DNA of 38,175 nt from Saccoglossus kowalevskii (taxonomy: Eukaryota > Hemichordata > Enteropneusta > Harrimaniidae). Numbering within the stretch: the stretch's first letter is position 1; each line of letters opens with the position of its first letter. Below the pieces are notes generated by a model. The model was not told where the DNA came from. It ran no database searches and worked only from the letters and a program-made list of their open reading frames with translations. The translations under genes and the position numbers were made by a program. Below, one piece after another: positions 3,901 to 37,097 of this stretch. The stretch is from NCBI RefSeq assembly GCF_000003605.2, contig NW_003119427.1, positions 361,306 to 399,480 of the forward strand, in the 5' to 3' direction.

Positions 3901-6900
3901 AGCATGTAGTAGCCTAACGAATTCAACACATGTTAAACGAAACTATGAGCTCCAGTCCCATTATATATCAATACATAATAAATAAACTCAATAAAGATAC
4001 ATCGGTGTGTAACACGTGTAGCAAGCTACGATAAATCTGCCATGGTAATACTAATATTGAACTTGAATATACTATACCATAATGAAATAGTTCAGAACTT
4101 TACAACGTACCGTGTTCAGTTTGTAACGTGTGATCTTTGGAGGGACCACTAAGATCAATATAACCATAAAATGCTGTACTGCCGCTGTATCTCACCCAGT
4201 CCAGGTCGTCTTCCCTTCGAGAGTTTGTCCACGTACAGGTACCCATCTCAAAGTTACATGCTCCTGTAATTTGAAGTATATGTTTTTTTCAACATGCATG
4301 ATTAGCTCACGTATATTACAACATACGTTGTGTACATATAACAACATACGTCGTGTCTATATTACAACATACGTTGTGTACATATAACATACGTTGTGTA
4401 TATATTACAACATAATTGTGTATCTATTACAACATTCGTTGTGTATATATTACACACATAATTGTGTATCTATTACAACATACGTTGTGTACATATTACA
4501 ACATAATTGTGTATCTATTACAACATACGTTGTGTACATATTACAACATAATTGTGTATCTATTACAACATAATTGTGTATCTATTACAACATACGTTGT
4601 GTACATATTACAACATAATTGGGTATCTATTACAACATACGTTGTGTACCTATTACAACATAATTGTGTATCTATTTCAACATACGTTGTGTACATATTA
4701 CAACATACGTTGTGTACATATTACAACATACGGTGTGTATATATTACAGCATACGTTGTGTACATATTACAACATAATTGTGTATCTATTACAACATACA
4801 TTGTGTACATATTACAACATACGTTGTGTACATATTACAACATACGTTATGCACATATTACAACATACGTTGTGTACATATTACAACATACGTTATGCAC
4901 ATATTACAACATACGTTGTGTACATATTACAACATACGTTATGTACATATTGCAACATACGTTGTGTATCTATTACAACATACATTGTGTACATATTACA
5001 ACATACGTTATGTACATATTGCAACATACGTTGTGTACATATTACAACATACGTTATGTACATGTTACAACATACGTTGTGTACCTATTACAACATACGT
5101 TATGTACATATTACAACATACGTTGTGTACATATTACAACATACGTTATGTACATATTGCAACATAAGTTATGTACATATTACAACATACGTTATGTACA
5201 TATTGCAACATACGTTGTGTATCTATTACAACATACATTGTGTACATATTACAACATACATTGTGTACATACAACATACGTTGTGTACCTGTTACAACAT
5301 ACGTTGTGTACATATTACAACATACGTTATGTACATATTGCAACATACGTTGTGCATCTATTACAACATACATTGTGTACATATTACAACATAAGTTGTG
5401 TACATATTACAACAAGCTTCATGACATGTTCGCTGAACTTTTTCTGATTTTCTAATTAAAACCTAAACCCACGTATTAATTAGGCTGAAACGAATCGTAA
5501 GTGAAATATGTGGACGAAGCCAATTGGTAGTCATATTATTATTGTCAAAATTGATTTTGAAAAGTGGCACTGAAACATCAATCATACATCAGGACAAATA
5601 TATCTATATTTATCGAATAAGAAATATTTTCGTAGGGTTCCATAATCATAACCCCAGGATGGGGTGAGAGTTTGCACATAAAAAAATAGGTGCAAATGGG
5701 GAGCGAGGGTGTCATTCATCTATCAAGACCCCCTAGCTGTTAGACGATTCATCATTGCCTTAGTAACTCACCATCCGGACTGCAGGGGCCGTCTATAATT
5801 TTGACATCGTCAATTGCAATGTCCCCTTTATAGCCGTTTACCACCCCTTCAAATACGACTTGGTAGTAGTAAAAACTGCGATAGTTAACAGTCGCTGAAT
5901 GCCAGAATTCACCAGCATCTCCAGACATTCTCCAGATAGGGTTGCCACGTATTCCATTCGTCATGATGTACACATTCAATGAACCAATGTGCTCACCTAA
6001 ATGTGAAAATATAAATTAAAGTATCTAATACATTAAAAATTAGACATCAAACCTGTCTATTAATGACTGTGCAAGACAAACAGCGGAACAGAATATATGG
6101 CAATTAGTAGACAAGACAAAAATTTGCCTCAAAACACCCACCATTCATGTGATACCAAAAATGTAGACATTTAGATAACTCCGGAGAATACACTGGACTG
6201 AGTAGACGTGATTTATCTCCTGCTGGTCGATCAGACGCGTCAATGTACATATAGTGACCTGTGGAAAGATGTATTTATTGAGTAGTTAGTACCAACTGTA
6301 CCCCGCAATTGCGATGTTGTAAAATTGGTATTGAGGTGTGATGAAGTGACAATTTTCTTCAAATTTGACATATCCGATGAGTTGATTTGGCATGCAGACG
6401 CACCGTATTCGGTGGCATACGTATGGTCGTACTTAGGTCCTGTGTCTGATGAATGTTGTTCGTTTCCACTGGCCCAAACCCAATCAAATTCGGGACTGTC
6501 TTCAAGGTCTTGATGATAGCCACATATATCCGAACTCTCAAAGTCACAGTAGTCTACGAATACAAAAACATTATATATTAGTAGAATAAGATTATAAACT
6601 AAAATATAGCCAAAACGGTCACGTGTTGGGTACATACCAAGAGGCGGGCACTCTCCGTCCAACACGCGTATGTCATCCAACGCAATATCCCCTTGGAACA
6701 TTTCCCCAGCGTGGCCTTCGAATACTAGTTCAATATCAGCATTCTCATTAAGAAACACTTGACCATACATCCAATCGATACCCTGTGTACCTGTACGGCT
6801 CCAAATGGCGTCACCTGTATGTGCGATAGATACATATTTGCATATACTCAACTAGTAAGTACAATTTAACCGTAGATGTAACTGCAAACTATATAAATAC

Positions 6901-12900: not shown

Positions 12901-15900
12901 GAAATACAAAACACGCCCACAGTTTAACATACACGATGTGCCGTCATCCAATGGCGGGATAAGCGGCTTCCTTTGTGTACAATCAGCGTCAACTTCATGA
13001 GTGAAACACGACGCACTTGCTAAGCCAGACCGTCTGGTGGCGCCCTACTTTTTCATCAATAACCAAATATACTATTATCCTGTTCCCGAATTGGACATTT
13101 GTTTATTTGGAGTAATTTCCAATTCTACGCCAGGTCCTTAGTAATTAATGATTCCACGTATTTATTTGGCCGTTATTTGACAGACGTAAAATGCCATAAT
13201 GTTAATTCGCGGAAATTTAAACACACTGATACTGATAGTGAATTACAAATTTGCCAAAAAATACTAAATTTGTTATCCCATATAAATAATTGAAATCAAA
13301 ATATTTTGCAGTATATATGTTTTGCGTCGCATGCACACGATTGAAATATCATATATAATGGCCCTAATATACTAATGTTGTATTTATTTAATTGTAAGAA
13401 CGAGTTTACATCATGGAATGGCCACGATGTACCACGGATCTCCAACATTGCTAACATTATCATTATCAGTATAGTAGCATCGTTTTACTCACACTCTTAC
13501 ATGTTACTAGTATATACTGGAAATGAATAACATATAATGCTCACCGTCTCCATATTGTCCTAATGTATGATCGTAACTCGCCCCAGTAGCTAAGTTCGGT
13601 GATTTTCCGGATCTAGATACCCACTTAAAGTCTGAGGAATCATCCTCAACCCTTATCCAGCCACAGAACTGATTTCCAATGTCTTCAAAATCGCATGTGA
13701 TGTCTGTATAATAAATAAACATCTACATTTATATAGATAGTATACGATAGCATCAAAAACAAAAAAACAACACAACATAATATGAACTAGAAATGTAATA
13801 TCATATTTCAATTATCAGCAACAAAATTAAATGCTGTACACGAACGAACGTCATAATTGCGTGAAATTAGTTTGGAACGGTCGGTCCGTTTGATTGATTG
13901 TGCGTTTGTCCTGCCAGACGCCCGGTGCCGTCGATTGCTTGTTGGCCTGTATAACTGTAACAACAAACTGGCTACATTTTAAAAACAATCAGCGACGAAA
14001 AGGCGGAGGTTAACGAGACAAACCATTTACTCAAAGGAGTGGTAACAGTGATCTCATTTGCGCCGAACAAACCCGGAATGCGACAGGGATCGTTCGTATA
14101 AAAACAAGATTTGGATGGTAACGGTTTGACAATTTTCGAAATATACCACCGAAATCCACCGAAAATTTGCTCCCCAAAAATGCAGGAAACAGCGTTTCAG
14201 AGGGTCTAGATTTCAAAATTTTTCCCGGGGGAGCAAGCTCCCAGACCCCCCAAGAAAGGTCGTCCTCGCGCCATCGGCGCTGGATTTGTTGACATTCACA
14301 TAAAATCTTTGCCCCCACAGTCAAAAAAAGCTGCCGCCGCCTCTGACTAGTGTAACAGTTTGACTTAACTGTGGGTCCGTTGCTCTTTTTTTGTCAGCGT
14401 TTAGTCTTTGTGGTGGTTTTTAGTTGGTGTCATTAAGATTGTTATCGACACAGAAGAGCTATGCCCCCTATAAACTAGCCTAACACAAATGTGCGTCGCC
14501 AATACAACCTTTACCGTCACCTATTTATATTACGTGTAGTGGGCGGTTGGGCGTTATGTTTGCTACAACGTATTTGTTTATCATAATTGTCTACTCTACT
14601 AACCAAAACATATCAGTTTACAAAGCCTGTCGCCGACACTGGGACACGTTTCGATCTGACTAATTTCACGCAATTGTGATGTTTGTTGTATCTTGTGCGA
14701 TTTGCGTNNNNNNNNNNNNNNNNNNNNNNNNNNNNNNNNNNNNNNNNNNNNNNNNNNTTGGTGTATGCAATATGTGCGTGGGTCGAGATATACGGTATGT
14801 GGGTTAGCGTATACGGTATGTGGGTTAGCGTATACGGTATGTAGGTTAGCGTATACCGTATGTAGGTTAGCGTATACGGTATGTGGGTTAGCGTATACGG
14901 TATGTGGGTTAGCGTATACGGTATGTGGGTTAGCGTATACGGTTTGTGGGTTAGCGTATACGGTATGTAGGTTAGCGTATACCGTATGTAGGTTAGCGTA
15001 TACGGTATGTGGGTTAGCGCATACGGTATGTGGGTTAGCGTATACGGTTTGTGGGTTAGCGTATACGGTATGTGGGTTAGCGTATACGGTTTGTGGGTTA
15101 GCGTATACGGTATGTGGGTTAGCGTATACGGTTTGTGGGTTAGCGTATACGGTTTGTGGGTTAGCGTATACGGTATGTGGGTTAGCGTATACGGTATGTG
15201 GGTTAGCGTATACGGCATGTGGGTTAGCGTATACGGTATGTGGGTTAGCGTATACCGTATGTGAGTTAGCGTATACGGTATGTGGGTTAGCGCATACGGT
15301 ATGTGGGTTAGCGTATCCGGTTTGTGGGTTAGCGTATACGGTATGTAGGTTAGCGTATACGGTATGTTAGCGTATACGGTATGTGGGTTGACGTATAGAA
15401 TATGCTGGTTGGTATAAGTGATATGTGGGTTTGCGTTTACGATATGTGGGTTGGCTTACTTGATATGAATCGGTGTATACGTTAGGTGGGTTGACATATA
15501 CGATATTTGATTTGGCGTAATAGCTATATCAATTATTGAAATGTTATACTCACCCGATACTGTATCCTTGACGTCCTCAGGGTGGCAATCACGTAGCACA
15601 ATTTCGTCGATTGCAACATCATTTGCATCGCCAGTAAACGATCCCAGAAGAGGGAAAGACTCCACATCGAACTGCATAAATAAGATTTTCATTAGAAAAT
15701 TGTTAGTTTCAGTTTCAACGTCAGTGCCGTTATACATTGACTTTAACCTTGAGGTTTTTGTACAGCAACTTTCTGTCTCGTATCCTTGTTTAACATATAA
15801 TTTAAAAAAAGTTTATTTCATTTCATAAATGTAAAACAACAACATCTTGTTTCTTTGAACATGCATAATTATAATATTCTAATATGTATGTTAATTCTTA

Positions 15901-18900: not shown

Positions 18901-21900
18901 TGAATAGATATACACATAATGACCAGCAGCTGTGTTGAGGGTGTGATCTCTACTAGGACCAGTCATTAGCAATGTGGAAGTTTTACCATCCTCCCGATCC
19001 CAATCTATGTCATCGTCCGTATCCTGGGTCCAGTCACACAGCCCAACCTCAAAGTTGCACCTCGTGTAGTCAGCTGTATACACAATATTTACATGAATAC
19101 ATATAATTATGGGCTGTGTTTGTTTTGAGAACAAGTCTCAATATTCAGTTGTCACGTTATGTATTGAGAGTAATCTACAAACATAATTTTCATTATCCCT
19201 CTATCATGAAAGATAAAACTATACATTTCAAATAGAGAATATAACAAGAAACAAAAAAAAACTTTTAGTGGTAAGGTACTGTTCAATATTTACCACAAAG
19301 AGTTTGATTTTCATCTGAGAAGTCTCCGCAGTCGTCTGTATAATCACAGATCCATTCGTAGTCCACACACGAGCCACGATTACACGTAAACCGATCACCA
19401 CAATCATCTTCAATCTCTGTTTAAAGAAATGTAATGATAGTAAATATGATAAATATATTACATTTTTTGAAAAAGGTGACACTCACATCACCGGCGCACT
19501 GTTAATATGCAAATTATGGCCACGTTTCTTATTAACAGCATGTCTTAGAAGTAATGTGGCAACCAATTTGTAAACTCGTCAACTCTGGTAAACAGTGGTC
19601 GCGCCCACTCTAGTAAAAATGGCCGCGCCTACTCTGATAAAAAGTTACCGTGCCTATTCTGGTAAAAAGTGACCGCGCCTATTCTGGTAAAAAGTGACCG
19701 CGCCTATTCTGGTAAAAAGTGACCGCGCCTATTCTGGTAAAAAGTGACCGCGCCTATTCTGGTAAAAAGTGACCGCGCCTATTCTGGTAAAAAGTGACCG
19801 CGCCTATTCTGGTGAAAAGTGGCCGCGCCTACTCTGATAAAAAGTGACCGCGCCTATTCTGGTAAAAAGTGACCGCGCCTATTCTGGTAAAAAGTGACCG
19901 CGCCTATTCTGGTAAAAGGTGGCCGCGCCTATTCTGGTAAAAAGTGACCGCGCCTATTCTGGTAAAAACTGGGCGCGCCTACTCTGGTAAAAACTGCATT
20001 TTTGAAAAAAACAGTATCCCTTACGTACATGTACTACTATTTATACTTAGCAAGGATCCGAAAACAACATAAAAAATAAAACAGTTATGAATGCATTTAT
20101 TTGATCTGAAGTAAACTTTTAGGTAACTCGTGTGAGTACGATAAGGGCTTCGGATTTTGTATGGTTCGTGAGAAACCTTATCCAACAGAATTCTGAATCT
20201 GAATCTGCAAATAAGAGGCTTTGAGTGATTACGGCAATCAAAATATGGCGATTGGACACAACGACCTTGTCAAATGATTTTATCTTTTTCCATGGTGGTC
20301 ACAATAATCAGTAACAAGTGTTCTACATATATTACAAAGTAGAATTCAACATTAAACGTACCGGGCAGTTGACAATTAACCAAAAAGACTTGGTCAATGG
20401 CTAGATCTCCCTCTGGTCCAAATTGACGCTTTGCCCTAAACACAAGCTGGTATATATATATATAAGGAATTAATATGTTAATTTAAAACAAATTTGGAAA
20501 TTGTAAAATTGCAATATTAAAGGGCGGCGTGCCGCGTCCTGTTCGATATGGGACTCATAGCGACGTATACAACGCGTGTAAAATACATTGTTTATTTACA
20601 TGAAATTCGAACACGCGCTGCGCGACACCGCGCTTTAATAAATTGAAATTTGTTACCTGCCAATCTGTTGCTATTCGGCCCACACCAGCAGAAGCAGTCA
20701 CCCAGTTATCGCCGTAGTCGCCTTTATGACTCCAGATTCGAGTCTGCATTCCATTCTGTACAAAATACACTTCCAACTTACCTGTATCTGTAATCGAATA
20801 GAATTATTATAATAAGATAATTAATAATTATATAATCGCATTGTTTATATTTTATGTAAATTGACACGTATTGAATTATTTGTTAGAGAGGCAGAATTCG
20901 CAAAATCATTACATGAAATCTGAGCCGATCAGCTGATGACTTACCGTCGCCATACATATGGAAACAAAAATAGAGCTGGCACGTAGAGCTACATTCTCTG
21001 ACAATTGGTCCGTCTAGCACAGCGTAACTTAATACATTCCCACTATCAGCTTCTACTGCCATGTAATAACCTGCGGATATACAAAGAAAATGTAGTGGGA
21101 AAGAGTGACATTTGCTGACACATGGACAAAAAACTTAAAAAAGCTACCAAATTTCAAGCCAACTGAAAAAACTAGTGATACAGAATAAACAAGCAGAAAA
21201 CAGTTAAATAGTATATGACAAGCTTAAAATACTTTACATTGTGTATATATCAATTATCCAAATGTACCTAAGTTGCAATCCATTTGAGCAAACAGTTAGG
21301 ATACAAACAGAACATAATAAAACTATGGAGGTATTTTACCCCCATGATAGAACCGGCTAATATGTAAATGAGCCAATACAGAATAATCAAGTTCAAAACA
21401 GTTAAATAGTATGCAAATTAGCTAATTAATATGTACATATAATTTAGAAGTTGGTATGAGAGATATTGATCAACATAAACAACAATCGTGTTCCAAGTTT
21501 CAATGAAATTGTTCAAACAGATTCAGAGGTACACTATCAGATTTGGTGCTCATAAGTAGCTTTGCACAAAGTATTTCAGTCCAGTAATTGTCTCTTGAAA
21601 TATCAGATTTAACAACACGATTTGACACATGTACACAAACGGCCAAACATCGTAACACCGGGGCAAAACGTACATAATCCCCTCTACATTGCATTTTTGT
21701 AACTCGATTTTTTTGTAACTCGAACGTTTCGACATCTCTGTAACAACACGTATTTGATGCAAATTGACAGTCTAACTTCTGTATAAAACAAGCTGCCTTC
21801 TCAAACAACAATATTTTGAACACAGAATACAATACTTTCGTTCACAAAACTTTCAGTGTAAAATAACGTTGTAATGCTGTAACGATGCTGTAGCGACGCG

Positions 21901-24554
21901 AATGCAAATGAAAATAACCTTGAGCCATACTGTAGCGGATTTTTGTTTATGTGAACCTGGAGTCAAATAAGCCAAAGCCTGTCTGACAGCGGTACTGTAT
22001 TCCTCAAGTGCCAGTTCCTGGATATTCATTTTAATGGGCCTCACTGGAACTACGTAAAACGTTCATGAATGTTGAATGCTGAATTTAGAGGGGAATCATG
22101 GGAATCGATGTCACGCAAAACCTTCTCACCTCCATGCACACTTTTGCTCAAGAGGCTCTCTGACTCGTTCACACAACGTATGCAACAATAATAAAAATAA
22201 GTATAAGTATTCATACTAGTAAATACACAATGATGAATGTGGAGTTTGTCCCCATGCCGGACTAAATTGACCGATAAATTTGTGTTTACCTTCTTTGTTA
22301 CCAGTGCAGTCAACAGATGGTCCAGTTTCAGGTGTGCTTGTACTTCCTTTCATTCTTTCCCACTCGTAGTCACCCCGGCTTATGTCCACGTAGCCACATT
22401 GGTCATCCTCGAAAGTACACTGACCTGTATATATACACACACAACAAATAAATAAACGAACAGACATACACGCAATATTTACTTTCCCATCTATCCAGAT
22501 ATTCTCCCTAAGACGAGTAACGCGATTTTCAATATATTTTGGATTAAAGAATGTGCCCGCGGTCGAATTAGCTTCATATGTGCTTCGACGATATCATCTG
22601 CGTTGGGGAACTGAAAACCATATAACGCAATGTTCTCTTTTTGAGATGCATAATTTGAACACGAAGTTCATCTTAATAATTAATATGCAAACATTTTTTT
22701 ACCACAGTCGATTTCGTCTTGTCCGTCATCGCAGTCTTTCACCCAGTTACATTGTTGGTCCTTTGTGATATTCAACGTTCCGTTATCACACAGGAGCGGC
22801 GGTTCCACGGGTCGCTCGCTACAAGCCACTTCGTGCATATATGTATCGTCGATAGCAAGGTCGCCAAACAGGACATTATCAAGCTCACCCACAATAACTA
22901 TCTGTTGTAAAATAATCATGAACCACATCTCAAATTTAAATGAATCGTATTTACAACATCGCGATAAATACGGCATGGTATAGTGGTGATATATACAACA
23001 TGGCATAGTGGCGATACTTACGACATGGCATAGTGGCGATATATACGACATAGCATAGTGGTGATATATACGACATAGGATAGTGACGATAAATGGGATA
23101 TGGTATAGTGGCGATATATACGACATGACATAGTGGCGATATATACGACATTGGATCGTGGTGTTATAAACGACATAGCATAGTGACGATACATACGACA
23201 TGGCATAGTGGTGATTAATGGGATATGGCATATTATAATGATAAATACAACATGGCATAGTCTTGCGATATAAAGGAAATGGCGATATATGATGATAATA
23301 TACACAACATGGTCTAATATGCCTATCTAATATACGACATGGCATAGTGGCGATATATATATATGACATGATATTGTATCGTGATATATAAGGCATGGCC
23401 TAAATGGCGACATATACGACAAGGCATAGTGGCGAAATGTTCGACATGACACAATATTATCGATATGTAATAGTATTATTACACTGTGGAGATGCAGTAG
23501 TGGTTAGATTGGTACATGTAATTAATAGACATATTACAACATATACCCCCTTTGTATAATAGAATTGGTTATGAAAGAGTATGCCATCATATAAGGCGAC
23601 ATATACGTACTTAATATATTGTGACATACCCTATATGGTTCGTTCCGATTAATGTCAACGGCGGCTTCGTGCCATCGGTCACCTTGATTACCAGTCTCCG
23701 ACCACAGCAATGTCAAGTCCATTGTACTTGCATGTTCGGTATAAACCTACACGAGTACGTGAGTTGGATACGGTTACAGAAGCAACTATTTATATGTGAA
23801 TTGGGGCATACTGATGAAGACTACTATCGAATTAAAGATAATAATGATAATATGTGTGCGTACATGCACTGAGAGCACGGACTAATGATCACTGGTATAT
23901 AAATAAAGTTACATACAAGTATCGCAGTGCTACGAGACAGAAAGTATGCGACACGTCTAATTTCTCACCGAGATCGTGCCCGGAGCTGCAGAAGGGCCGT
24001 ACATGTGATAATGAAATTCAAAACAGCGGTGGTTGGTATCGCTGAAAACGTCTGATACCATTATTGCTTTATCGCCATCTCTTGCTGGCGGTGCGCTTTC
24101 AAATAACATATACCAGCCTGTCAAGATAAAAAACAAAAAGTATATTACAAATTATTCTATCGCCATGTTTCAAATTACGAGTAGTGTTTAGAGGGAACTC
24201 ACCTAACGGTGTGCCAGTAGTATGGTCACTGTGTGGTCCCGTGACACCAAGGAGAGAGCCGGATGAGCCGGTAAATCTTATCCAATCGAAATCGGCCCCG
24301 GCATGATTGGTCCAGGTGCACATGTCATATTCGAATGTACAAGAGGCTACATAGCAAAAAAACAAAAACAGGTTAATAACACGGTATATTTGACGACAGA
24401 TAAATATACGATTGGAATTACGAAAGTTTATCATTCCATTCATAACATACGTTAAAGCGGGCGAGCCGTCACCTGCGCATGCGTCATATGGCCATACCGT
24501 CTCATTGTTTACAAACAAGCGTATACCCATGAATGAATACAATCAATATATGAT

Positions 24555-27600: not shown

Positions 27601-30041
27601 GGGAGGACAGGGTCGAATCCGTTCAAGGCAGAAATATTCACCCGAAAACTAGACAAACACAGACGCTATGAAATTCGTTGAGCGACAACAGGTATACGTT
27701 GTTCCAGTTTTGTGTTATTGTAATGATTTTCGTTTGGTCCAACAATCGGCATGAACACACTCATTGACATTGGTTTTCTTGTAATGGTATCCACACCTAA
27801 TTTCTTGTTGAAAAATATAAGATATGCATATAAATGAGAGGACTTCTGTTGAACACTGTAAACGGACAATAACGAACATTTTGATAATTTCAAAATACGT
27901 CATTATGGCAGGTTCACCTGCATTCTCGTCAAACCGCTTGGAATGTTGATCTCCCAATACCACGTAGTGTTTTTGTGCACAAATATCCAACATGCAAATC
28001 AGTGACGAAACCTAACACAGCAAAGTGCTAAGGTTTAACATTGTGTTATTAATTTTTATTTATTTTCATTCACTGTCGAACAGCGCCACCTGTTCTCGGA
28101 CGATGAACGGTTGATGGCGTACGCGAGCTGCTTAGTATGGTTTGTGATAAAGAGATGTTATCAGACGAGCACGGTCATGTTGTGAAGTAGGACACCGATT
28201 TGTAATCACGTGATATACTTGCCAATTCAGACAGATTAAGTGTCAGTGGATACAATTCAAAATGTCAAGGTTTCCAGTCCGACATTAAACAATGCGGTTG
28301 TTCATTGCTTACGGGGAGAGGGCACTTTACATAGATCTATGTGTACAGTCCATCATGAGAAGATGACATTCCTATTTTAAAAATTTTAACACGTTTTCTC
28401 ATTTGGCGATTCCTAAAACATATACAACGTGTATATATATGTTATATATTAACGTGTTTGCGATTATATATTGTTTGTGTCTAGCCTGAAATATTACGTC
28501 AGACTTCCTTCATCAGCTTCATTCGTGCGTAACAGTAACCGGTTACCCTAGACTTAGAATCAACATCATATTGGGCCATGAACCAGTCATGCAACCCTGA
28601 AACACGAAGACAATTAAAGGGCGGTGCTCGTCGCAACGCGTCCTTTTCAACTCATAGCGACGTACACAACGGGTGTATTATGTATTATTTATTTACATGA
28701 AATTCGAACACGCACTGCTCGACGACCACCGCCTTTTAAACAAAATCAATAACCGATGTCAAACTTTGCTTTATATTTTTAAATGATTTTCCGTTAAAAC
28801 ATAAAATTTAGTGTCAGTTTGGAAATTTTAAAGTTGGGGCCTCACATTAGTCTTGTGTTGATTTCTTTTGAAGTTTACCGCAATGTCACCGTGTGTCAGT
28901 TTTATGCTGCGTGACACACTTACAGGCGACTCGGACTCTATATAAACAACATGCATGTGTTTAAGATAGGCGATGTCGTCGTGCGTTGACCCGCGTAATC
29001 ACAGACGACATCTCCGATCAAAACCGAGTACAAATTGTACCACTGCCAATAAATAGGTCCGCACGTCTCTGCAGAATTTAATCAGAGGTTGTGGCCTCGA
29101 CAACGATTTTTGTAATATTTACATTTGTCGTTCATTTTCAAATTTTCTCAAGTGTGCTTCATTTAGTTTATGTGAATATTGCTACAGTAATAAGATTGTG
29201 CACATTTTCGGGGGATGAAATTTTAGTCGGTACATCAAAAAAAAAGTCTAAGGAGCTAAACCTTATCCTAGGTCCCACATATATTTTGTATTTAAAAATA
29301 TAATTTTTACTTTGTCCTGTTTTCTAGTATCCTACTTGTAAGGCATATACCAATGGAAAACGTTTGAGTATGTACAGACATAATGTTTAAAGGGCGGTAG
29401 TCGTCGCGCCACGCATGCGCGAGATATATGGGTCTCATATAAACAAAGCTGGCAACGTTGACTGTTGCGCAGATCAACGAGTACGAACTGAGATGTTTAC
29501 AAGATTTAATTGGGTAATTTTCAGGTGATTGGAAGTCACCGGCGGTAATCAGTGTAAGTCGCACCCAGGTCAAAGCTCATACTTGTGATTTCCATTTGAA
29601 GAGCGCATTGGATTGTGGGAGAATCAATTTTTATCAACACAAATGTTGCACATGCGCAGGGCGGCGACTACCGCGCTTTAAACTGCACTATTCATATAAT
29701 GATTGGGGAAAATTACTTCATCAGTAAATTTCACATGTATGTGTTACCTCATGTAACACACTTGTGAAAGGCGACGTGTATTTCGTACGTTTTCATGAAT
29801 CAGGACAGCAGATACCACATGAAGTGAATATCAGGAGGATAACCCATTCTACGCGTAAGTGACCTACCTTCTGCCGTGCCAATGGTATGATCAGCTGGTG
29901 GTCCGCTTCTCGTGAGTGGTCCAGACTTGCCTTGTTGGATCGCCCAATCATCGTCGTCGTCCTGGTCTTGCAGCCAGTTACACGTATCGCCGTTTTCAAA
30001 GTCACAGCCAAGTTCAGGGATAGGAGTGAAGGCCGTCGCAA
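833..30041 (-). CDS. Giant MAM/LDL-receptor class A mosaic protein (45 exons, partial at the 3' end)
   Basis: Joining 45 exons gives a 2,379-codon open frame with 13 MAM domains and 5 LDLa domains. Approximate joined residues: MAM1 1-172, MAM2 173-335, MAM3+LDLa1 336-538, MAM4 539-695, LDLa2 696-736, MAM5+LDLa3 737-955, MAM6 956-1128, MAM7 1129-1296, MAM8 1297-1459, MAM9 1460-1622, MAM10 1623-1811, MAM11 1812-1975, MAM12+LDLa4 1976-2179, MAM13 2180-2340, LDLa5 2341-2379. Recurrent motifs are CDFE, Cx[11 protein letters not shown] and GDIAIDD (MAM), and [16 protein letters not shown] (LDLa). MAM domains are extracellular adhesion modules and LDLa modules are calcium-stabilised ligand-binding modules. 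Proteins of this type include vertebrate MALRD1 and secreted coral skeletal-matrix proteins; the role here is unknown. No membrane segment is seen. The first exon could carry the signal peptide or lie downstream of an unseen one. The gene continues past the left edge. Family assignment is secure; orthology to any named gene is not claimed. Confidence 0.93.
1074..1158 (-). CDS. Exon 44: C-terminal part of MAM13
   Basis: Encodes [28 protein letters not shown]. 85 bp, phases 0-1, acceptor atgttacag, donor G|GTAAGC. Same length, phase and NC-x-x-P ending as exon 14. Confidence 0.92.
1362..1492 (-). CDS. Exon 43: second central part of MAM13
   Basis: Encodes [41 protein letters not shown]. Phases 1-0, acceptor tacattgatag, donor G|GTAGGT. 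Joins exon 42 as HMFGE-N-IGRL. Confidence 0.91.
1722..1847 (-). CDS. Exon 42: central part of MAM13
   Basis: Encodes [32 protein letters not shown]. 126 bp, phases 1-1, donor A|GTATGT. WYMAVEA matches YYMAVEA of the cassette paralogue exon 12. Confidence 0.93.
1848..2290. other. Intron 41, no recognisable content
   Basis: AT-rich intron sequence between MAM13 exons. No repeat array or coding signal seen. Confidence 0.6.
2291..2431 (-). CDS. Exon 41: N-terminal part of MAM13
   Basis: Encodes [42 protein letters not shown]. Phases 1-1, acceptor ttgttcaag, donor G|GTAATT. Confidence 0.92.
2519..2726 (-). CDS. Exon 40: C-terminal part of MAM12 fused to LDLa4
   Basis: Encodes [31 protein letters not shown], a proline linker, then LDLa: [30 protein letters not shown]. 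As in exon 10, LDLa cysteines 1 and 3 are missing and four remain. Phases 0-1, donor G|GTAAAG. Confidence 0.92.
3053..3167. mobile_element. Small inverted-repeat element (MITE-like), GAATAC family copy 1
   Basis: The left end reads aaaataccgcaaagtatgca and the right end, reverse-complemented, gaatacctcaaacgtgtgca, with matching AGGCAGTA inside. The same ends occur at 26123-26228. About 115 bp with no coding capacity. An (ATT)n run lies just outside the right end. Boundaries approximate. Confidence 0.6.
3409..3519 (-). CDS. Exon 39: second central part of MAM12
   Basis: Encodes [35 protein letters not shown]. 37 codons, phases 0-0, acceptor ttttccacag, donor G|GTACGG. Confidence 0.91.
3774..3913 (-). 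CDS. Exon 38: central part of MAM12
   Basis: Encodes [37 protein letters not shown]. Phases 1-0, acceptor gaattcgttag, donor A|GTAGGT. Confidence 0.93.
4111..4263 (-). CDS. Exon 37: N-terminal part of MAM12
   Basis: Encodes [42 protein letters not shown]. Phases 1-1, acceptor caaattacag, donor G|GTACGG. First exon of the second copy of the nine-exon cassette; TCTWTN matches MCTWTN of exon 7. A 23-bp minisatellite begins about 45 bp upstream of its acceptor. Confidence 0.92.
4310..5415. repeat. 23-bp minisatellite, about 48 copies
   Basis: Unit approximately ttacaacatacgttgtgtac plus ata. Each unit holds an ACAAC/GTTGT inverted repeat around ATAC, so each can form a small hairpin. Three unit types are regionally grouped: ..aattgtgtatct.. 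mainly on the left, ..cgttgtgtacat.. throughout, ..cgttatgtacat.. mainly on the right. All three plus-strand frames stay open because the unit has no stop and 23 is not a multiple of 3. Lies in intron 36. Confidence 0.95.
5772..5996 (-). CDS. Exon 36: C-terminal part of MAM11
   Basis: Encodes [49 protein letters not shown] and IIDGPCSPD. 225 bp, phases 1-1, donor G|GTGAGT. A complete MAM end. Confidence 0.94.
6142..6258 (-). CDS. Exon 35: central part of MAM11
   Basis: Encodes [32 protein letters not shown]. 117 bp, phases 1-1, acceptor tctttccacag, donor G|GTGGGT. Equal in length to exon 5, the matching part of MAM2. Confidence 0.94.
6404..6553 (-). CDS. Exon 34: N-terminal part of MAM11
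   Basis: Encodes [43 protein letters not shown]. Phases 1-1, acceptor gtattcgtag, donor G|GTGCGT. The open frame reads on past the donor and into the intron before exon 35. Confidence 0.92.
6638..6814 (-). CDS. Exon 33: C-terminal part of MAM10
   Basis: Encodes [40 protein letters not shown] and VLDGECPPL. Phases 1-1, acceptor cacatacag, donor G|GTATGT. Confidence 0.94.
7108..7284 (-). CDS. Exon 32: central part of MAM10
   Basis: Encodes [48 protein letters not shown]. Phases 1-1, acceptor gttgctag, donor A|GTGAGT. Confidence 0.92.
7525..7737 (-). CDS. Exon 31: Pro/Thr linker and N-terminal part of MAM10
   Basis: Encodes a linker [19 protein letters not shown], then [25 protein letters not shown] and [14 protein letters not shown]. 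Phases 1-1, donor G|GTGAGA. The linker resembles those in exons 1 and 18, which also introduce a domain. Confidence 0.93.
7939..8163 (-). CDS. Exon 30: C-terminal part of MAM9
   Basis: Encodes [51 protein letters not shown] and PGSCN. Phases 1-1, donor A|GTAAGT. The ATG near the acceptor is internal. Confidence 0.92.
8164..8592. other. Intron 29, no recognisable content
   Basis: AT-rich sequence between MAM9 exons; no repeat family or coding signal recognised. Confidence 0.55.
8593..8718 (-). CDS. Exon 29: central part of MAM9
   Basis: Encodes [32 protein letters not shown]. 126 bp, phases 1-1, acceptor attacgcag, donor A|GTAAGT. Confidence 0.93.
8785..8933. repeat. Compound (AAAC)n/(AAAT)n microsatellite reaching an exon donor
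   Basis: Plus strand shows interrupted aaac repeats followed by aaat repeats with a few substitutions. On the minus strand the array starts two bases into the intron after exon 28, so the donor reads GTATTTATTT. Confidence 0.93.
8935..9072 (-). CDS. Exon 28: N-terminal part of MAM9
   Basis: Encodes [37 protein letters not shown]. The donor is G|GTATTTATTTATTT: the splice site itself merges into an (ATTT)n microsatellite. Phases 1-1. Confidence 0.91.
9192..9344 (-). CDS. Exon 27: C-terminal part of MAM8
   Basis: Encodes [36 protein letters not shown] and PVEGPCGIK. Phases 1-1, acceptor gtcacag, donor G|GTTAGT. Confidence 0.92.
9526..9758. mobile_element. TTAA-type MITE, long family, degenerate copy
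   Basis: Shares a string of segments with 29387-29681: gactgttgc, aactgagang, gcgcattggattgtg, cccaggtcaaa and the terminal ccgccctttaa. The right end is clear, with TTAA at 9755-9758. The left terminus has decayed; its true edge may lie as far left as about 9446. Lies in intron 26. Confidence 0.65.
9909..10112 (-). CDS. Exon 26: central part of MAM8
   Basis: Encodes [38 protein letters not shown] and FEWSKS. Phases 1-1, donor A|GTAAGA. Confidence 0.93.
10113..10512. other. Intron 25, no recognisable content
   Basis: AT-rich intron between exons 25 and 26. No repeat or gene recognised. Confidence 0.55.
10513..10644 (-). CDS. Exon 25: N-terminal part of MAM8
   Basis: Encodes [36 protein letters not shown] and TGTAEG. 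A textbook MAM N-terminus. Phases 1-1, donor G|GTAAGT. Confidence 0.94.
10882..10972 (-). CDS. Exon 24: C-terminal part of MAM7
   Basis: Encodes [30 protein letters not shown]. Phases 0-1, acceptor cacacag, donor G|GTATGG. 91 bp. Confidence 0.9.
10973..11423. other. Intron 23, no recognisable content
   Basis: AT-rich intron within MAM7. Plus-strand short open frames here have no supporting motifs. Confidence 0.55.
11424..11677 (-). CDS. Exon 23: central part of MAM7 (fused exon)
   Basis: Encodes [52 protein letters not shown] and LQFQ. 254 bp, phases 1-0, donor G|GTGACT. Like MAM6, it lacks the intron after HMYG. Confidence 0.92.
12153..13446. mobile_element. 1.28 kb DNA transposon with 77-bp TIRs and TCCAAC target duplication
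   Basis: Arms at 12159-12235 and 13364-13440 are inverted copies, 77 bp each, with 24 identical outer bases (gatccgtggtacatcgtggc and on) and roughly 80-85% identity overall by eye. The direct repeat TCCAAC lies immediately outside both arms (12153-12158 and 13441-13446), as expected of a target-site duplication. The interior is GC-richer, with a promoter-like start and a plus-strand first exon. Superfamily not determined; a 6-bp duplication is uncommon. Confidence 0.8.
12607..12727 (+). CDS. Candidate first exon with helix-turn-helix-like peptide inside the TIR element
   Basis: ATG in a good context (gcagcaATGG) opens 40 codons: [20 protein letters not shown], then [14 protein letters not shown], ending at the strong donor [21 protein letters not shown] resembles the N-terminal helix-turn-helix of DNA-binding transposon or recombinase-type proteins. 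An NRF1-like CGCATGCGCA and an inverted CCAAT lie about 180 bp upstream. No second exon was recognised, so this may be a transposase remnant or a captured host exon. Confidence 0.4.
13545..13703 (-). CDS. Exon 22: N-terminal part of MAM7
   Basis: Encodes [41 protein letters not shown]. Acceptor ttattatacag, donor G|GTGAGC, phases 1-1. Confidence 0.93.
13855..14675. mobile_element. Possible decayed inverted-repeat element
   Basis: A perfect 17-bp inverted repeat, aattgcgtgaaattagt, lies at 13855-13871 and 14659-14675. Inside is a GC-rich patch near 14222-14260 with cccgggggagcaagctccc and a C-run. The pattern resembles old transposon remnants, but no family was identified. The second arm stands about 30 bp from the assembly gap. 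Confidence 0.35.
14708..14757. other. Assembly gap of 50 Ns
   Basis: A run of exactly 50 N, beside a long minisatellite, suggests assembly failed or collapsed in the repeat. True gap size unknown. Confidence 0.99.
14786..15510. repeat. 21-bp minisatellite containing GGGTTAG
   Basis: Unit gtgggttagcgtatacggta plus t, about 29 good copies to 15395, then degenerate units to about 15510. Each unit contains GGGTTAG, a permutation of the animal telomere repeat plus one base, and the palindrome CGTATACG. Because 21 is a multiple of 3, each frame gives a 7-residue repeat and long spurious open frames on both strands. Lies in intron 21. Confidence 0.95.
15554..15671 (-). CDS. Exon 21: C-terminal part of MAM6
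   Basis: Encodes [29 protein letters not shown] and a charged tail EDVKDTVS. Phases 0-1, donor G|GTGAGT. DVAIDEI replaces GDIAIDDI. Confidence 0.89.
15902..16167 (-). CDS. Exon 20: central part of MAM6 (fused exon)
   Basis: Encodes [62 protein letters not shown] and RRWR. The intron after YHMxG seen in four-exon MAMs is absent. CC adds one cysteine. Phases 1-0, donor G|GTAAGA. Confidence 0.91.
16168..16520. other. Intron 19, no recognisable content
   Basis: AT-rich intron within MAM6, nothing recognised. Confidence 0.55.
16521..16655 (-). CDS. Exon 19: N-terminal part of MAM6
   Basis: Encodes [21 protein letters not shown], then a divergent acidic stretch ([11 protein letters not shown]) where TGPxxDHTxG normally lies. 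Phases 1-1, donor G|GTAAGA. The DHT motif is lost. Confidence 0.9.
16656..17229. other. Intron 18, no recognisable content
   Basis: AT-rich intron between LDLa3 and MAM6. Only short unsupported open frames. Confidence 0.55.
17230..17467 (-). CDS. Exon 18: C-terminal part of MAM5, Pro/Thr linker and LDLa3
   Basis: Encodes [25 protein letters not shown], then a [12 protein letters not shown] linker likely to be extended and O-glycosylated, then a canonical six-cysteine LDLa: [31 protein letters not shown]. Phases 0-1, donor G|GTAGGA. Confidence 0.94.
17468..17991. other. Intron 17, no recognisable content
   Basis: AT-rich intron within MAM5, nothing recognised. Confidence 0.55.
17992..18156 (-). 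CDS. Exon 17: central part of MAM5
   Basis: Encodes [33 protein letters not shown] and VSPDDFQ. 55 codons, phases 0-0. The initial ATG is an internal methionine after the acceptor ttgtttatag, not a start. Donor G|GTAATT. Confidence 0.9.
18157..18819. other. Intron 16, two GC-richer patches
   Basis: Two patches with GGCGCCATCTTG (near 18218) and GGCCGCCGCGACC (near 18440) stand out from AT-rich sequence and could be old insertions. No terminal repeats could be confirmed. Confidence 0.4.
18820..19073 (-). CDS. Exon 16: N-terminal and central part of MAM5 (fused exon)
   Basis: Encodes [40 protein letters not shown] and GDYARLLSR, ending GNCT. The intron that separates DHT..G from HYxYI in most other MAMs is missing here. 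Phases 1-0. The donor ACG|GTATTT sits directly before the FYYHM exon. Confidence 0.91.
19294..19416 (-). CDS. Exon 15: LDLa2
   Basis: A stand-alone LDLa exon with all six cysteines: [19 protein letters not shown], then [20 protein letters not shown]-x-S-D-E provides the calcium-site acidic residues. Phases 1-1, donor G|GTAAAT. Paralogue of the exon at 833-949. Confidence 0.93.
19580..19996. repeat. 25-bp GC-rich minisatellite, about 16 copies
   Basis: Unit tggtaaaaagtgaccgcgcc plus tattc. Central units are almost identical, while edge units carry shared variants (ggccgcgcctactctgat), the usual sign of homogenisation from the centre. CpG-rich GACCGCGCC contrasts with the AT-rich host intron 14. 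Confidence 0.95.
20362..20446 (-). CDS. Exon 14: C-terminal part of MAM4
   Basis: Encodes [20 protein letters not shown], then FLVNCQLP. 85 bp, phases 0-1, donor G|GTACGT. The acceptor lies in a TATATA run ending accag, with no pyrimidine tract. The exon at 1074-1158 has the same length, phases and ending and is its paralogue. Confidence 0.87.
20517..20638. mobile_element. TTAA-flanked MITE, short family copy 1
   Basis: 122 bp from TTAAAGGGCGGCG to CACCGCGCTTTAA; the ends are inverted copies. Shares an internal segment (actcatagcgacgta, then ttacatgaaattcgaacacg) with 28614-28739. TTAA at both ends suggests a TTAA-target element. Lies in intron 13. Confidence 0.8.
20657..20781 (-). CDS. Exon 13: second central part of MAM4
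   Basis: Encodes [36 protein letters not shown] and TDWQ. Phases 1-0, donor G|GTAACA. Matches the MAM segment between FWYHMYG and the closing strand. Confidence 0.9.
20945..21070 (-). CDS. Exon 12: central part of MAM4, cysteine-rich
   Basis: Encodes [38 protein letters not shown] has become FCFHMYG, and a further cysteine sits at REC. These two extra cysteines may pair with each other or with DCT in exon 11. 126 bp, phases 1-1, donor G|GTAAGT. Confidence 0.9.
21071..22289. other. Intron 11, no recognisable gene
   Basis: 1.2 kb AT-rich intron within MAM4. Contains internally similar stretches (cagaataaacaagcagaaaa and cagaataatcaagttcaaaa, each followed by cagttaaatagtat), perhaps an old duplication. 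No coding motif found. Confidence 0.5.
22290..22424 (-). CDS. Exon 11: N-terminal part of MAM4
   Basis: Encodes [21 protein letters not shown], then [13 protein letters not shown]. The usual DHT is DCT here, an extra cysteine. Acceptor tatatacag, donor G|GTAAAC, phases 1-1. Confidence 0.91.
22703..22901 (-). CDS. Exon 10: C-terminal part of MAM3 fused to LDLa1
   Basis: Encodes [25 protein letters not shown] (MAM end), a short PVEPP linker, then an LDLa: [24 protein letters not shown]. Cysteines 1 and 3 of the LDLa (normally bonded to each other) are both absent; four remain. Phases 0-1, donor G|GTAAAA. The open frame also runs back through the neighbouring minisatellite, but the acceptor caacag sets the exon edge. 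Confidence 0.9.
22960..23460. repeat. Degenerate minisatellite of about 25 bp
   Basis: Repeating gatatatacgacatggcata with gtggc, copies diverged and of uneven length. It makes a long minus-strand open frame of [14 protein letters not shown] type that runs into exon 10. The repeat is intronic (intron 9). Confidence 0.88.
23630..23746 (-). CDS. Exon 9: second central part of MAM3
   Basis: Encodes [32 protein letters not shown] and NEPYR, 39 codons in phases 0-0. Acceptor actcgtgtag, donor [20 protein letters not shown] is the typical MAM W-x-x-x-G-x-x-G-x-x-W segment. Its paralogue is 3409-3519. Confidence 0.9.
23969..24117 (-). CDS. Exon 8: central part of MAM3
   Basis: Encodes [19 protein letters not shown], then [14 protein letters not shown] and GTIS. 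Phases 1-0, donor G|GTGAGA. FHYHMYG replaces FWYHMYG. Its paralogue in the duplicated cassette is the exon at 3774-3913. Confidence 0.92.
24203..24346 (-). CDS. Exon 7: N-terminal part of MAM3
   Basis: Encodes [21 protein letters not shown], then [12 protein letters not shown]. Acceptor gctatgtag, donor G|GTGAGT, phases 1-1. This is the first exon of the nine-exon cassette repeated later at 4263 down to 833. Confidence 0.93.
24452..24738. mobile_element. TTAA-flanked MITE, middle family copy with internal (AT)n, abutting exon 6
   Basis: Ends TTAAAGCGGGCGAGCCGTCA and, reverse-complemented, TTAACGTGGGAGGGTTGTCA, each followed by CCT and a GCAT/GCAC motif. Shares gtctcattgtttacaaacaa-like and gagcctttgcgtt segments with 27290-27457. 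The terminal TTAA lies 3 bp from the end of exon 6. A long AT dinucleotide run enlarges this copy. Confidence 0.82.
24560..24620. repeat. (AT)n microsatellite
   Basis: About 30 AT dinucleotides, inside the MITE at 24452-24738. Confidence 0.97.
24742..24978 (-). CDS. Exon 6: C-terminal part of MAM2
   Basis: Encodes [30 protein letters not shown] and [17 protein letters not shown], a complete MAM end in one exon. Phases 1-1. The donor is G|GTATTAACG. The TTAA at donor +4 to +7 is the end of an inserted MITE, so the element abuts the splice site. Confidence 0.9.
25301..25417 (-). CDS. Exon 5: central part of MAM2
   Basis: Encodes [19 protein letters not shown], then [12 protein letters not shown]. 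Acceptor catgtatag, donor G|GTACGT, phases 1-1. A possible N-glycosylation site (NAT) precedes the conserved cysteine. Confidence 0.93.
25635..25769 (-). CDS. Exon 4: N-terminal part of MAM2
   Basis: Encodes [21 protein letters not shown] and [10 protein letters not shown]. The CDFE, C-G-F and DHT positions match the family. Acceptor attctacag, donor G|GTTAGT (a less common GTTAGT form), phases 1-1. Confidence 0.93.
25770..26534. other. Intron 3, mostly unannotated
   Basis: AT-rich intron holding the small inverted-repeat element at 26123-26228; nothing else recognised. Confidence 0.55.
26123..26228. mobile_element. Small inverted-repeat element (MITE-like), GAATAC family copy 2
   Basis: Left end gaatacctcaaagtatgcac; right end, reverse-complemented, gaatacatcaaagtatgcac. 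About 31-bp TIRs with few mismatches, GC-rich centre. Same family as 3053-3167; both are followed by an aaccttattatta-type tail. Confidence 0.72.
26535..26717 (-). CDS. Exon 3: C-terminal part of MAM1
   Basis: Encodes [19 protein letters not shown], a strand ending ITIQTTAS, then [18 protein letters not shown], the closing MAM motif with its final cysteine. Acceptor gttatccag, donor A|GTAAGT, phases 1-1. The usual GDIAIDD is VVAIDD here. Confidence 0.92.
26842..27000 (-). CDS. Exon 2: central part of MAM1
   Basis: Encodes WYASVEM, then a conserved cysteine ([13 protein letters not shown]) and [13 protein letters not shown]. Acceptor cgctccag, donor C|GTAAGT, phases 1-1. FWYHM is the core MAM beta-strand. 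It joins exon 1 as GTAEG-WYASV. Confidence 0.92.
27290..27457. mobile_element. TTAA-flanked MITE, middle family copy
   Basis: 168 bp. Left TTAAAGCGGGGCAGTCGTCA, right (reverse complement) TTAAAGCGGGAGGGTCGTCA, each followed by CCT and a CGCATGCG-like motif. Related to the copy at 24452-24738. Lies in intron 1. Confidence 0.82.
27458..28613. other. Part of intron 1, no recognisable content
   Basis: AT-rich sequence. A GGGTCGAATCC string near 27611 resembles a tRNA B box but no tRNA fold surrounds it. Nothing else recognised. Confidence 0.5.
28614..28739. mobile_element. TTAA-flanked MITE, short family copy 2
   Basis: 126 bp from TTAAAGGGCGGTGCTCGTCG to CGACGACCACCGCCTTTTAA; ends are inverted copies. 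The internal match to 20517-20638 includes ttacatgaaattcgaacacg. Confidence 0.8.
28740..29386. other. Part of intron 1, no recognisable content
   Basis: AT-rich, with only short unsupported open frames. Confidence 0.5.
29387..29681. mobile_element. TTAA-flanked MITE, long family, intact copy
   Basis: 295 bp with about 20-bp imperfect TIRs: TTAAAGGGCGGTAGTCGTCG and, reverse-complemented from the right, TTAAAGCGCGGTAGTCGCCG. No open frame of note. Homologous to the degenerate copy ending at 9758. Confidence 0.85.
29868..30041 (-). CDS. Exon 1 (first visible): linker and N-terminal part of MAM1
   Basis: Encodes a short TPIPELG linker, then [11 protein letters not shown], an acidic DDDDDW run and [13 protein letters not shown], the N-terminal MAM signature. 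The donor is G|GTAGGT. On the right the acceptor reads tcttccctag, giving a phase 1 start. The same frame is open further upstream to an ATG at 30075-30073, so this could instead be the initiating exon (see the signal-peptide entry). Phases 1-1. Confidence 0.88.
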
Positions 30042-30075
30042 CTAGGGAAGAAAATATCAGATAGCTAATTGTCAT
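30042..30075 (-). other. Possible start codon and signal peptide overlapping the exon 1 acceptor
   Basis: Reading upstream in the exon 1 frame gives an ATG and the peptide [15 protein letters not shown], then FTPIPELG. It has a hydrophobic core and an A-x-A site typical of signal peptidase cleavage. The same bases form a pyrimidine-rich splice acceptor (tattttcttccctag). Only one can be right for a given transcript. For a start: no MAM or LDLa exon is visible in the next 8 kb upstream. Against: the ATG context is weak (T at -3) and a phase 1 acceptor fits all other MAM N-terminal exons. Confidence 0.4.
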
Positions 30076-30914
30076 CGATCATTAGTAGAAAATGTGATAT
30101 GATTCTCTGTGATCGGATACAATACTGTATTGAAGACTGGGCTTCTCATCTTCAGAAAGATATCGATCTTATTGAAAAGAAAGTTTAGAGCAGAGCGACG
30201 TAATTGTAGTTACGAACACAGGCTTCGCAAGTTTAATCTAACAACATTATAAGTTTCACATGAACTGTGGAAGAGTGCTGCAAAACGAGAGGTATGATTG
30301 AGTTTTTTTTTTAGTTATTAAGGAATGACATAGATCACATGCAATATTCGTGGTAACTCGATGTGCTTCCAAAAAACGTCTTGATCTCAGTAAACATTTA
30401 TGTAACTAAAGAGTAAATTCATAGAACAATCTGTTAGAATCTGTGATTAGGGCACAAACAGTCAATTTGAGCTTCAAGAGAAAACTTAACATCATGACAA
30501 AAAAAGAAAAGGATACGTATATACAAATTGACTGACTGACTCATTGCTGCAGCAAGTTTCAGTGCTGTAGCCATCAAGTAAAATTACGTCTATTAATCAT
30601 ACTATGACATTTGCTGATCACAACGTTGCAGTTGCGTTTATTTATTGATGGAAACTTTCCACCAGTAATCAAAACCTGAGTGTTCACATCAGTGAACAAA
30701 ACAGGAAAGTATCCATGTTTCACAGTCGTTAATGTCAAAGACTACTAAGAGTCGCTAATGTTAGGTTGTATACGTAGCAGAGACACTGTATATTCGAGTA
30801 GGACAACAGTGTGACAACATCTGGTGACATCTGCTGCCAGCTTGTTGTTTGTTTTATGTTGTTGCAAACTTGATTTTTCCATATTATATATCAATAAATA
30901 AATGACCACGGCAC
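30076..30914. other. Region upstream of exon 1, no recognisable content
   Basis: If the ATG at 30075 is used, this stretch holds the promoter and 5' UTR of the large gene. No TATA box or CpG cluster is evident. Otherwise it is intron. Confidence 0.45.
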
Positions 30915-31178
30915 GGTCTGCCACAATCTGATTAAAATCTAATGTAGTGTACGGGCTTTAATTATTTTGGCTATAAACTTATTTTAATTTTATTTTTTAT
31001 TACTTTTGTTATTAATTCCCTTTTATTTCATTATTTTACTTTGATTTTGATTTTGTGATTTTTTTTAATTCCGCCCTACCTACATCTGACCCGATGCCTA
31101 TGTAACGAGATTTCAACGAGACCCACTACCGACGATTTTAGTCAACGAGTCTCAGACCTCCTTCTATAGCGCACATGA

Positions 31179-31186
31179 TGACGTCA
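31179..31186. promoter_or_regulatory. CRE-like palindrome TGACGTCA
   Basis: Perfect match to the CREB/ATF site, 37 bp before an AAAATGGCGG motif and about 85 bp before a splice donor, in a GC-richer patch. A single 8-mer could be chance. Confidence 0.35.
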
Positions 31187-31945
31187 CCGGGCAGAGTCAG
31201 GTGGCAAACACACTCAAATAAAATGGCGGATTATACCGACGTTAGCGACCGTGAATAACACGGCTTTTCGGTAAGTTTATCATTGTCAAATGCAACGAAA
31301 GTCATTTGTATGTTAATATTGTGGCTCGAATGGTTCGACTTTAGATCGTTATTTCGCATAGTTATTCTGGGAGTGACGATTTTGTTTCCACCGGTTCGAC
31401 CGAACACCAGTGTCTTTTTCCAGTCCGACTGGAGTCGCCTGCCCTGGAGACGGGTGATGTTTTGTTGACGATCGGGTCAAAATCGTCTACGATATTGAAG
31501 CTGTAAATATTCATCAAATTGTATCATCATTTTGTACATTATATAATAACTCTTTATTAAAGTAATTGAGCTGATTTGGACTGGAATAAAATATTTTTTA
31601 TTTGGAACACATCGCAATTGATCAGGAAATATTTGTTTGCTCCAATTTTCTGCGTCGATGCCGTGGGCCGGTGACCGTTATACAATTTAAAATCAGTTTG
31701 CATTGTTTACTATAACTGTTTACAGTGTTCTAATCATTACGATTTACTTATTTTTTTGCTTCCATTCTAGAAAATTATGATCAGTGATGTAAAATTGAAG
31801 CCATGACTGAATGAACGAACTTTGGCTGGCGAAGATGTATCTGGAAGTGTTGTTGGAAGTGAAAAAAATATTCAATGTAAAGACAAAATTTGTAAAATGC
31901 TGTGGAATTTTTTTTGCAAATAAAAATATACTAGCAATTTTCTAT
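31179..31945 (+). other. Candidate two-exon transcription unit inside the MULE-type element
   Basis: In order on the plus strand: a CRE palindrome TGACGTCA (31179-31186), an AAAATGGCGG motif (YY1-like) at 31221, exon 1 ending at the strong donor G|GTAAGT (31270/31271), a 500-bp intron, a pyrimidine-rich acceptor ttgcttccattctag (ending 31770), exon 2, and AATAAA at 31919-31924. Coding capacity is tiny: ATG at 31223 gives MADYTDVSDRE then stop, or 27 codons from 31175. It could be a captured gene 5' end, a non-coding RNA or a short-peptide gene. Confidence 0.45.
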
Positions 31946-32257
31946 TAATGGTTTATTCAAGTGGGCAAAATATAATGTACAGAAAGATTGCCCGTATACA
32001 CTGAAAAGTAAGGACCCGACAGCCTGTATAAAAGGGGGGCTGTGATTGGCTGTTACTTACGCGAGATTTGAACGGGACTTGCATAGGCGTCGGATCAGGT
32101 AGGGCGCTATTAAAAAACAATCTCAAAATCAAAGTAAAATAATAAAATAAAAGGCATTAATAACAAATATAATAAAAAATAATATTAAAATAAGTTTATA
32201 GCCAAAATAATTAAAGCCCGTACACTACATCAGATTTTAATCAGATTGGGTCTGCCA

Positions 32258-36133: not shown

Positions 36134-36173
36134 ATGAAGGGCCTAGCTTTACTGTGGGTTCTCTGTTTTACAG
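36134..36173 (+). CDS. Candidate first coding exon with signal peptide of a plus-strand gene
   Basis: ATG with A at -3 opens MKGLALLWVLCFTG: a positively charged start, a leucine-rich core and a small residue at the end, then an exact donor G|GTATGA. Phase 1 exit is the usual phase joining a signal exon to extracellular modules such as MAM or LDLa. The rest of the gene would lie to the right, and no further exon could be recognised before 38175. It is divergent from the MAM/LDLa gene. A chance short hydrophobic frame is possible. Confidence 0.4.
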
Positions 36174-37097
36174 GTATGAAAACCTATTATTTTTATGAAA
36201 AACATTTTCCTTTTCAGGGATATGTAAAACAATGGCCGACGTTGCATATTGTTTACTCGTTTCAACATTTACAGGCGTGTTTGAATCGCGGCATACTGTG
36301 AATCGTGACAAGTTAACACATTTTTATTTTTGTTGATGTTGGGCCGCAAGTTGTTATGTGTCCTTTACCGGGAAAGTTAGTGTGTTACTCTTATATAGTA
36401 ATGATAACTCCATATATTATTTGAAAGTATAATAGAAACTTCGCCGCCTTGGATGAGGCAACGCTTACATTGAGGTCGAGTAAACTAACAACCATTACAC
36501 GTCATCGCGTGATGGCAGATTTGTGTCGTGATAATACCGGCATACACTTACACAATCACTAATTACAGTTATTTAGTTATGTAAATAATTATATTATGCT
36601 TACGTAAGATTTAAATGCTTCTATTAACTTTGATCTTAAAACTGTAATCCATAAAATCTCTGGCGTCCGAATTTCTTTGGCAATAAAGTTATTTTGCATA
36701 AGTATATCCTATATCATTACTGTCACACTTTTATCTGCGATTAGTTACAAGCAAACGCCATATATTTAGTGGCAGCCCAAATATTATTGAAAATGAACCC
36801 GTCCGAAATGTTGACGTCTCGTGTAAAATAAACTGAAACAATGGCGGCTCTATCAGTGAGCCTCTCAATACAACGTTACCCCATCATCCGATGACCCATT
36901 GTACCTTAGACTCATTAACGATCTGAGATGAACAATAGATACTGTATAAACGCGACACATATAATCTAATTCGCTGTGCGAGTATCAGTATTTGCATGTT
37001 TTTTACTGGTATCATTAACAACGATGTATAAAACTGATAAAATACAAGGTTTGATTGTCGTATGAAATACCGTTTTTTGAGTTGAAAGATGACTCGT
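36174..37097. other. Possible first intron of the plus-strand gene; nothing recognised
   Basis: AT-rich, no exon or repeat recognised. Confidence 0.5.

Follow-up and report, generated by a model that had tools for sequence, protein, structure and literature searches.

A non-autonomous Mutator-type element with a gene-like interior and a 17-bp direct repeat at its inner arm edges in Saccoglossus kowalevskii

A stretch of 38,175 nucleotides of Saccoglossus kowalevskii DNA (contig NW_003119427.1), analysed here as a whole and referred to as the window, contains a mobile element of 1325 bp (30924–32248), bounded by inverted arms. The element is a non-autonomous Mutator-type (MULE-like) DNA transposon with a gene-like interior and one unusual structural trace, a short direct repeat that lies exactly where the arms meet the interior. 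The most likely reading of the interior, to which we give about an even chance, is as the stub of a gene belonging to the transposon family itself, and we prefer this to capture from the host.

The first-pass annotation had taken a pair of inverted arms and an exact 9-bp duplication as the limits of the element, and both were borne out. The left terminal inverted repeat, which starts CAATCTGATT, comprises 182 bp (30924–31105, plus strand) and the right one 170 bp (32079–32248, minus strand); the two match each other in BLASTN with an E value of 5e-56. In their alignment, 158 of 183 columns are identical, the remainder being 14 gap columns, 6 transitions and 5 transversions, and identity over the 169 ungapped columns is 93.5%. 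The target-site duplication, GGTCTGCCA, flanks the arms on the left (30915–30923) and on the right (32249–32257) as an exact 9-bp match, for which the chance probability at fixed ends is 0.25^9. No further copy of the element was found within the window, the next blastn match having an E value of 0.043.

An exact 9-bp duplication and arms of this length both fall within the ranges given for MULEs in the available text of PMC6446971 (target-site duplications of 8–11 bp and terminal inverted repeats of 14–500 bp). Pfam searches of the element covered five hand-typed peptides of possible spliced frames and five of the seven ORFs of at least 55 aa that overlap it, the remaining two straddling its ends; this is less than a full six-frame scan, and within it no transposase was matched in either set. 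The assignment to a Mutator-type, non-autonomous element made in the first reading is thus supported by the 9-bp duplication, the long arms and the lack of a Pfam transposase in the scanned frames; within those frames the interior is transposase-free, as that of a Pack-MULE would be. The internally tandem-repeated arms of Foldback (FB-type) elements were not seen, Tandem Repeats Finder reporting no array in 30924–32248 at a score threshold of 50. A MULE-type transposase supplied in trans would bind the arms and move the element with a 9-bp stagger, the gaps being filled by the host. Without a transposase to classify it by, the superfamily of the element cannot be fixed. Duplications made by Merlin elements are 8–9 bp long, and we consider membership of another superfamily that makes duplications of 8–9 bp, for instance Rehavkus or Merlin, in place of MULEs proper quite improbable; this question is separate from that of the origin of the interior, and the likelihoods attached to the two are not to be added. 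In favour of such a membership, Rehavkus, the outgroup in PMC6446971, likewise has 9-bp duplications, with arms of 26–400 bp (Table 1 in the available text of that paper).

Searches of other collections added little. Patterns derived from the arms gave no match in viral and prokaryote contig collections, which hold no animal genomes and so carry little weight, and there was no match to Rfam at gathering scores anywhere in the window. The arm ends, searched as text in the literature, retrieved bacterial papers only, which we took as chance, and a scan for bacterial promoters and terminators was set aside as inapplicable to such sequence.

Outside the element, the MAM domain (PF00629) was matched in 8 of 13 scanned ORFs, all on the minus strand, seven of the matches lying above the Pfam cut-off and one (22216–22593) just below it. 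Together with introns, these domains suggest an animal genome. The start of the minus-strand ORF at 29800–30078 resembles, in our own reading, a signal peptide and is followed by a MAM domain; its upstream edge is 846 bp from the element, which sits upstream of what is likely to be the start of a MAM-domain gene. On the plus strand, ATGAAGGGCCTAGCTTTACTGTGGGTTCTCTGTTTTACAG followed by GTATGA (36134–36173) resembles the first exon, encoding a signal peptide, of a gene in that orientation, again in our own reading, and the ORF around it gave no Pfam match. CpG is not depleted in the window (observed/expected 1.07). There are four large tandem arrays (4313–5414, 14789–15452, 19584–19993 and 22961–23448, with units of 23, 21, 25 and 25 bp, respectively), the first two of which read as long repetitive open frames. 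A CG-rich, foldback-like inverted pair with 46-nt arms that are 78% complementary occupies 29385–29683, and arms of the type TTAAAGCGGG...GCATGCG at 24452, 27290 and 27426 may represent a related MITE family. A second element with terminal inverted repeats (12159–13440, 1282 bp) has 77-bp arms (12159–12235 and 13364–13440) and a 6-bp duplication, TCCAAC; an ATG and a GTAAGT site (12728) lie between its arms, together with a short open frame. The frame gave no match in Pfam; we take it to resemble the N-termini of IS3EU-type transposases, which make 6-bp duplications.

The interior of the Mutator-type element carries, in order on the plus strand, every motif that had been reported for it. A CRE-type site, TGACGTCA (31179–31186), with a putative promoter role, is followed by an ATGGCGG start at 31223 in a Kozak-type context (AAAATGG), by a donor after 31270 and an acceptor before 31771, and by AATAAA at 31919–31924. 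The start opens an ORF of 11 codons, MADYTDVSDRE, ended by TAA (31223–31258). Donor and acceptor would delimit a candidate intron of 500 bp (31271–31770, CG/GTAAGT ... TTCTAG/A), and the predicted second exon would extend up to and include AATAAA (31771–31924). Nearer the right arm lie TATAAAAG (32027–32034, plus strand) and ATTGG, an inverted CCAAT (32045–32049). TATAAAAG faces right, towards the outside of the element, so that not all of the promoter-like sites are compatible with a single unit. The G+C content of 31106–31305 is 0.46, a value reached by 58 of 760 segments of the window. Within the window the CRE occurs three times and ATGGCGG five times (four on the plus strand, one on the minus strand); AATAAA occurs 99 times on the plus strand and 41 times on the minus strand, and with so many plus-strand occurrences this motif carries less weight. 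A layout resembling that of the element occurs at 36812–36847 on the plus strand, where ATGGCGG (36841) comes 22 bases after TGACGTC, but the interior of the element has no BLAST match there.

Splice sites were scored with approximate frequencies as weights. The donor after 31270 scored 9.1 and the acceptor before 31771 scored 7.0; an acceptor at 31422–31423, within the candidate intron, outscores the latter at 8.1, the right arm holds a donor-like site at 32096 with a score of 10.3, and acceptor-like sites on the minus strand of the element reach 11.7 and 10.8. A donor/acceptor pair equally strong was obtained in 54 of 1000 dinucleotide shuffles of 31106–32078. In view of this frequency, of the stronger acceptor inside the candidate intron and of an ORF of just 11 codons, the complete two-exon transcription unit proposed at first reading is not confirmed; the present interior would make at most a short RNA with the 11-codon ORF.

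In a transcript spliced from 31270 to 31771, the frame of the ATG would continue as HGFSKIMISDVKLKP, a stop, LNERTLAGEDVSGSVVGSEKNIQCKDKICKMLWNFFCK and a further stop, the final one overlapping the AATAAA stretch. Across this junction the frame holds 2 internal stops in 63 codons, as compared with a mean of 5.3 in 5000 mononucleotide shuffles (P = 0.086), a difference that is not significant and that hints weakly at the decay of a coding sequence. We presumed a likeness of the joined frame to the N-termini of animal transposases, which no result of the analysis bears out. The five hand-typed peptides, three overlapping ones from this frame and two more, had no Pfam match at E values of up to 10. 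A comparison of the joined-frame peptide with viral contigs returned 18 pattern stretches, none of which was confirmed by tblastn, and a match to SP24 of the ORF reading through the donor (31259–31468) was discarded, its E value being 0.023 and its score of 15.1 bits lying below the cut-off of 30.

These data bear on the possibility that the element is one of an ordinary family of non-autonomous copies, with an interior that does not descend from a gene and motifs that have come together by chance. The frequency of the splice pair in shuffled sequence, the abundance of AATAAA on both strands, the shortness of the ORF, the non-significant depletion of stops and the stronger minus-strand acceptors in the same element are all in keeping with this, but the full ordered set of CRE, Kozak-type ATG, donor, acceptor and AATAAA, chosen after it had been seen, appeared in none of 1000 shuffles and, again for a set chosen post hoc, has no second occurrence with sites as strong on either strand of the window. 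We regard a chance origin of the motifs as fairly improbable.

The structural trace is a feature absent from the first-pass annotation. CGAGATTTCAACGAGAC adjoins the left arm (31106–31122, plus strand) and CGAGATTTGAACGGGAC adjoins the right arm (32062–32078, plus strand); these 17-bp sequences have the same orientation, are alike at 15 of 17 positions and lie exactly on both inner arm edges. Among random ends of equal base composition, the score of this repeat was reached in 0 of 300000 cases with the edges exact and in 1 of 20000 with the edges free by 4 bases. Such ends were found in 92 of the 36180 stretches of 973 bp in the window, 91 of which have their start or end no more than 25 bases from a tandem array; the remaining one is the element. 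The element contains three direct 17-mer pairs alike at 15 of 17 positions, the other two lying in the A+T-rich left arm, and the window contains no additional match to either copy when up to four mismatches are allowed. Since the 17-mers are direct repeats between inverted arms, removing the interior together with one 17-bp copy gives arm, 17-bp loop and arm, that is, a foldback. This arrangement suggests, although it does not prove, that a foldback element may have received the interior at its loop, the loop being duplicated in the process. Direct repeats at arm/interior junctions were not found in the literature consulted, including the available text of the paper on Tm1 (PMC3169594), and nothing on such junctions was found in the accessible part of a 2026 review of capture in plants (PMC13317346), although earlier studies of maize Mu1 may bear on the matter.

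MULEs that carry pieces of genes are well known in plants, and the first-pass annotation had proposed that the element is a Pack-MULE that captured a host promoter and exons. We consider this possible, if unlikely. Its sole support in the form of a mark of later insertion is the 17-bp repeat on both edges, to which no comparable repeat was found in the second element with terminal inverted repeats (12159–13440; best 5 of 6); in addition, G+C, measured in bins of 60 bases, rises from 0.13–0.37 within the left arm to 0.45–0.48 in the next three bins. In a capture of this kind, a foldback precursor consisting of arm, 17-bp loop and arm would have suffered a staggered break across the loop, about 940 bp of foreign DNA would have been put in, and filling of the gaps would have copied the loop to either side of it, where it would persist as a scar. 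That we are dealing with an animal Pack-MULE that displays precisely this route, its foreign promoter and exons having entered a foldback loop at a staggered hairpin break and the 17-bp loop having been duplicated as a scar, appears rather unlikely.

Several observations weigh against capture. The remainder of the window (31 kb to the left and 6 kb to the right) yielded no parent of the interior, the best candidates, with E values of 0.37 in blastn and 0.47 in the translated search, being rejected as chance, and no scanned frame matched a host protein domain in Pfam at cut-off. According to the available text of Tan et al. (PMC8277862), 160 of 281 animal Pack-TIRs lie within 15 kb of their parent, and the marks described at their junctions are microhomologies of 1–36 bp with a median of 2, not duplications. 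Nor do the motifs establish a Pack-MULE, because the gene-like parts could equally form the start of the transposon's own gene.

An intron-bearing transposase gene that had undergone internal deletion would be expected to keep a start codon, an exon and an intron at its 5' end and, at its 3' end, a stop next to AATAAA. For this reason, and because the second element (12159–13440) has a similar layout, itself unproven, we prefer to see the interior as a stub of the family's own gene. Internal deletion would leave a decayed 5' end, comprising promoter, first exon, first intron and the beginning of the second exon, together with the 3' end of the gene. Maize Ds and defective MuDR elements are internal-deletion derivatives, in which the arms are retained together with a stub of the parental gene. 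The duplication and arms, the Kozak-type ATG and the joined frame, with its two stops and its end at the AATAAA stretch, support this origin, as do the absence of a parent from the rest of the window and of a host-domain match from the scanned frames. On the other side, similarity to any transposase was not found in those frames, the depletion of stops falls short of significance, and stronger splice-like sites occur elsewhere in the element on both strands; moreover, internal deletion would not account for the 17-bp repeat at the arm edges, unless the full-length element carries the repeat too. An own-gene stub and capture are not exclusive at depth, as the gene of the family could itself have come in at the loop at some earlier time.

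Known systems offer partial parallels. The nearest precedent in the literature consulted is Tm1 of root-knot nematodes, an animal Mutator/Foldback family that likewise makes 9-bp duplications; its non-autonomous copies are mostly ∼0.9 kb, and one of them carries the intron-bearing transcript Cg-1 between its arms (Gross and Williamson, 2011, PMC3169594, available text). The same text describes Tm1 arms as composite with internal repeats, whereas those of the present element are simple, and reports a Tm1 copy with a Phantom-like transposase. In the available text of PMC8277862, Drosophila Ssk-FB4 elements, termed Pack-MULEs by the authors, resemble the present element in having long arms, 9–10 bp duplications and gene sequence between the arms, but their source gene (Ssk) is named and the FB4 arms measure ∼700 bp, as compared with 182 and 170 bp here. 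Rice Pack-MULEs, as treated there, similarly have MULE-like arms and a duplication around gene-like DNA; they are defined by a parental host locus, whereas none was found here in the 38-kb window. MULEs were found in all the mollusc genomes analysed in PMC10294476, going by its available text, and animal MULEs with gene pieces comprise, in the available texts, Ssk-FB4 (PMC8277862) and perhaps Tm1-HH, according to the Tm1 authors (PMC3169594). The first-pass remark that such elements are little described in animals agrees with Tan et al. (2021; PMC8277862, available text).

The meaning of the element turns on the origin of its interior. If the interior comes from the host, the 17-bp duplications bordering the arms would be a physical trace, open to testing, of the way in which such capture takes place. 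If, as we prefer, the interior is what remains of the gene of the family itself, the case would be an ordinary one, and it would serve as a warning that promoter, ATG and splice motifs within a non-autonomous element are not enough on their own to show capture.
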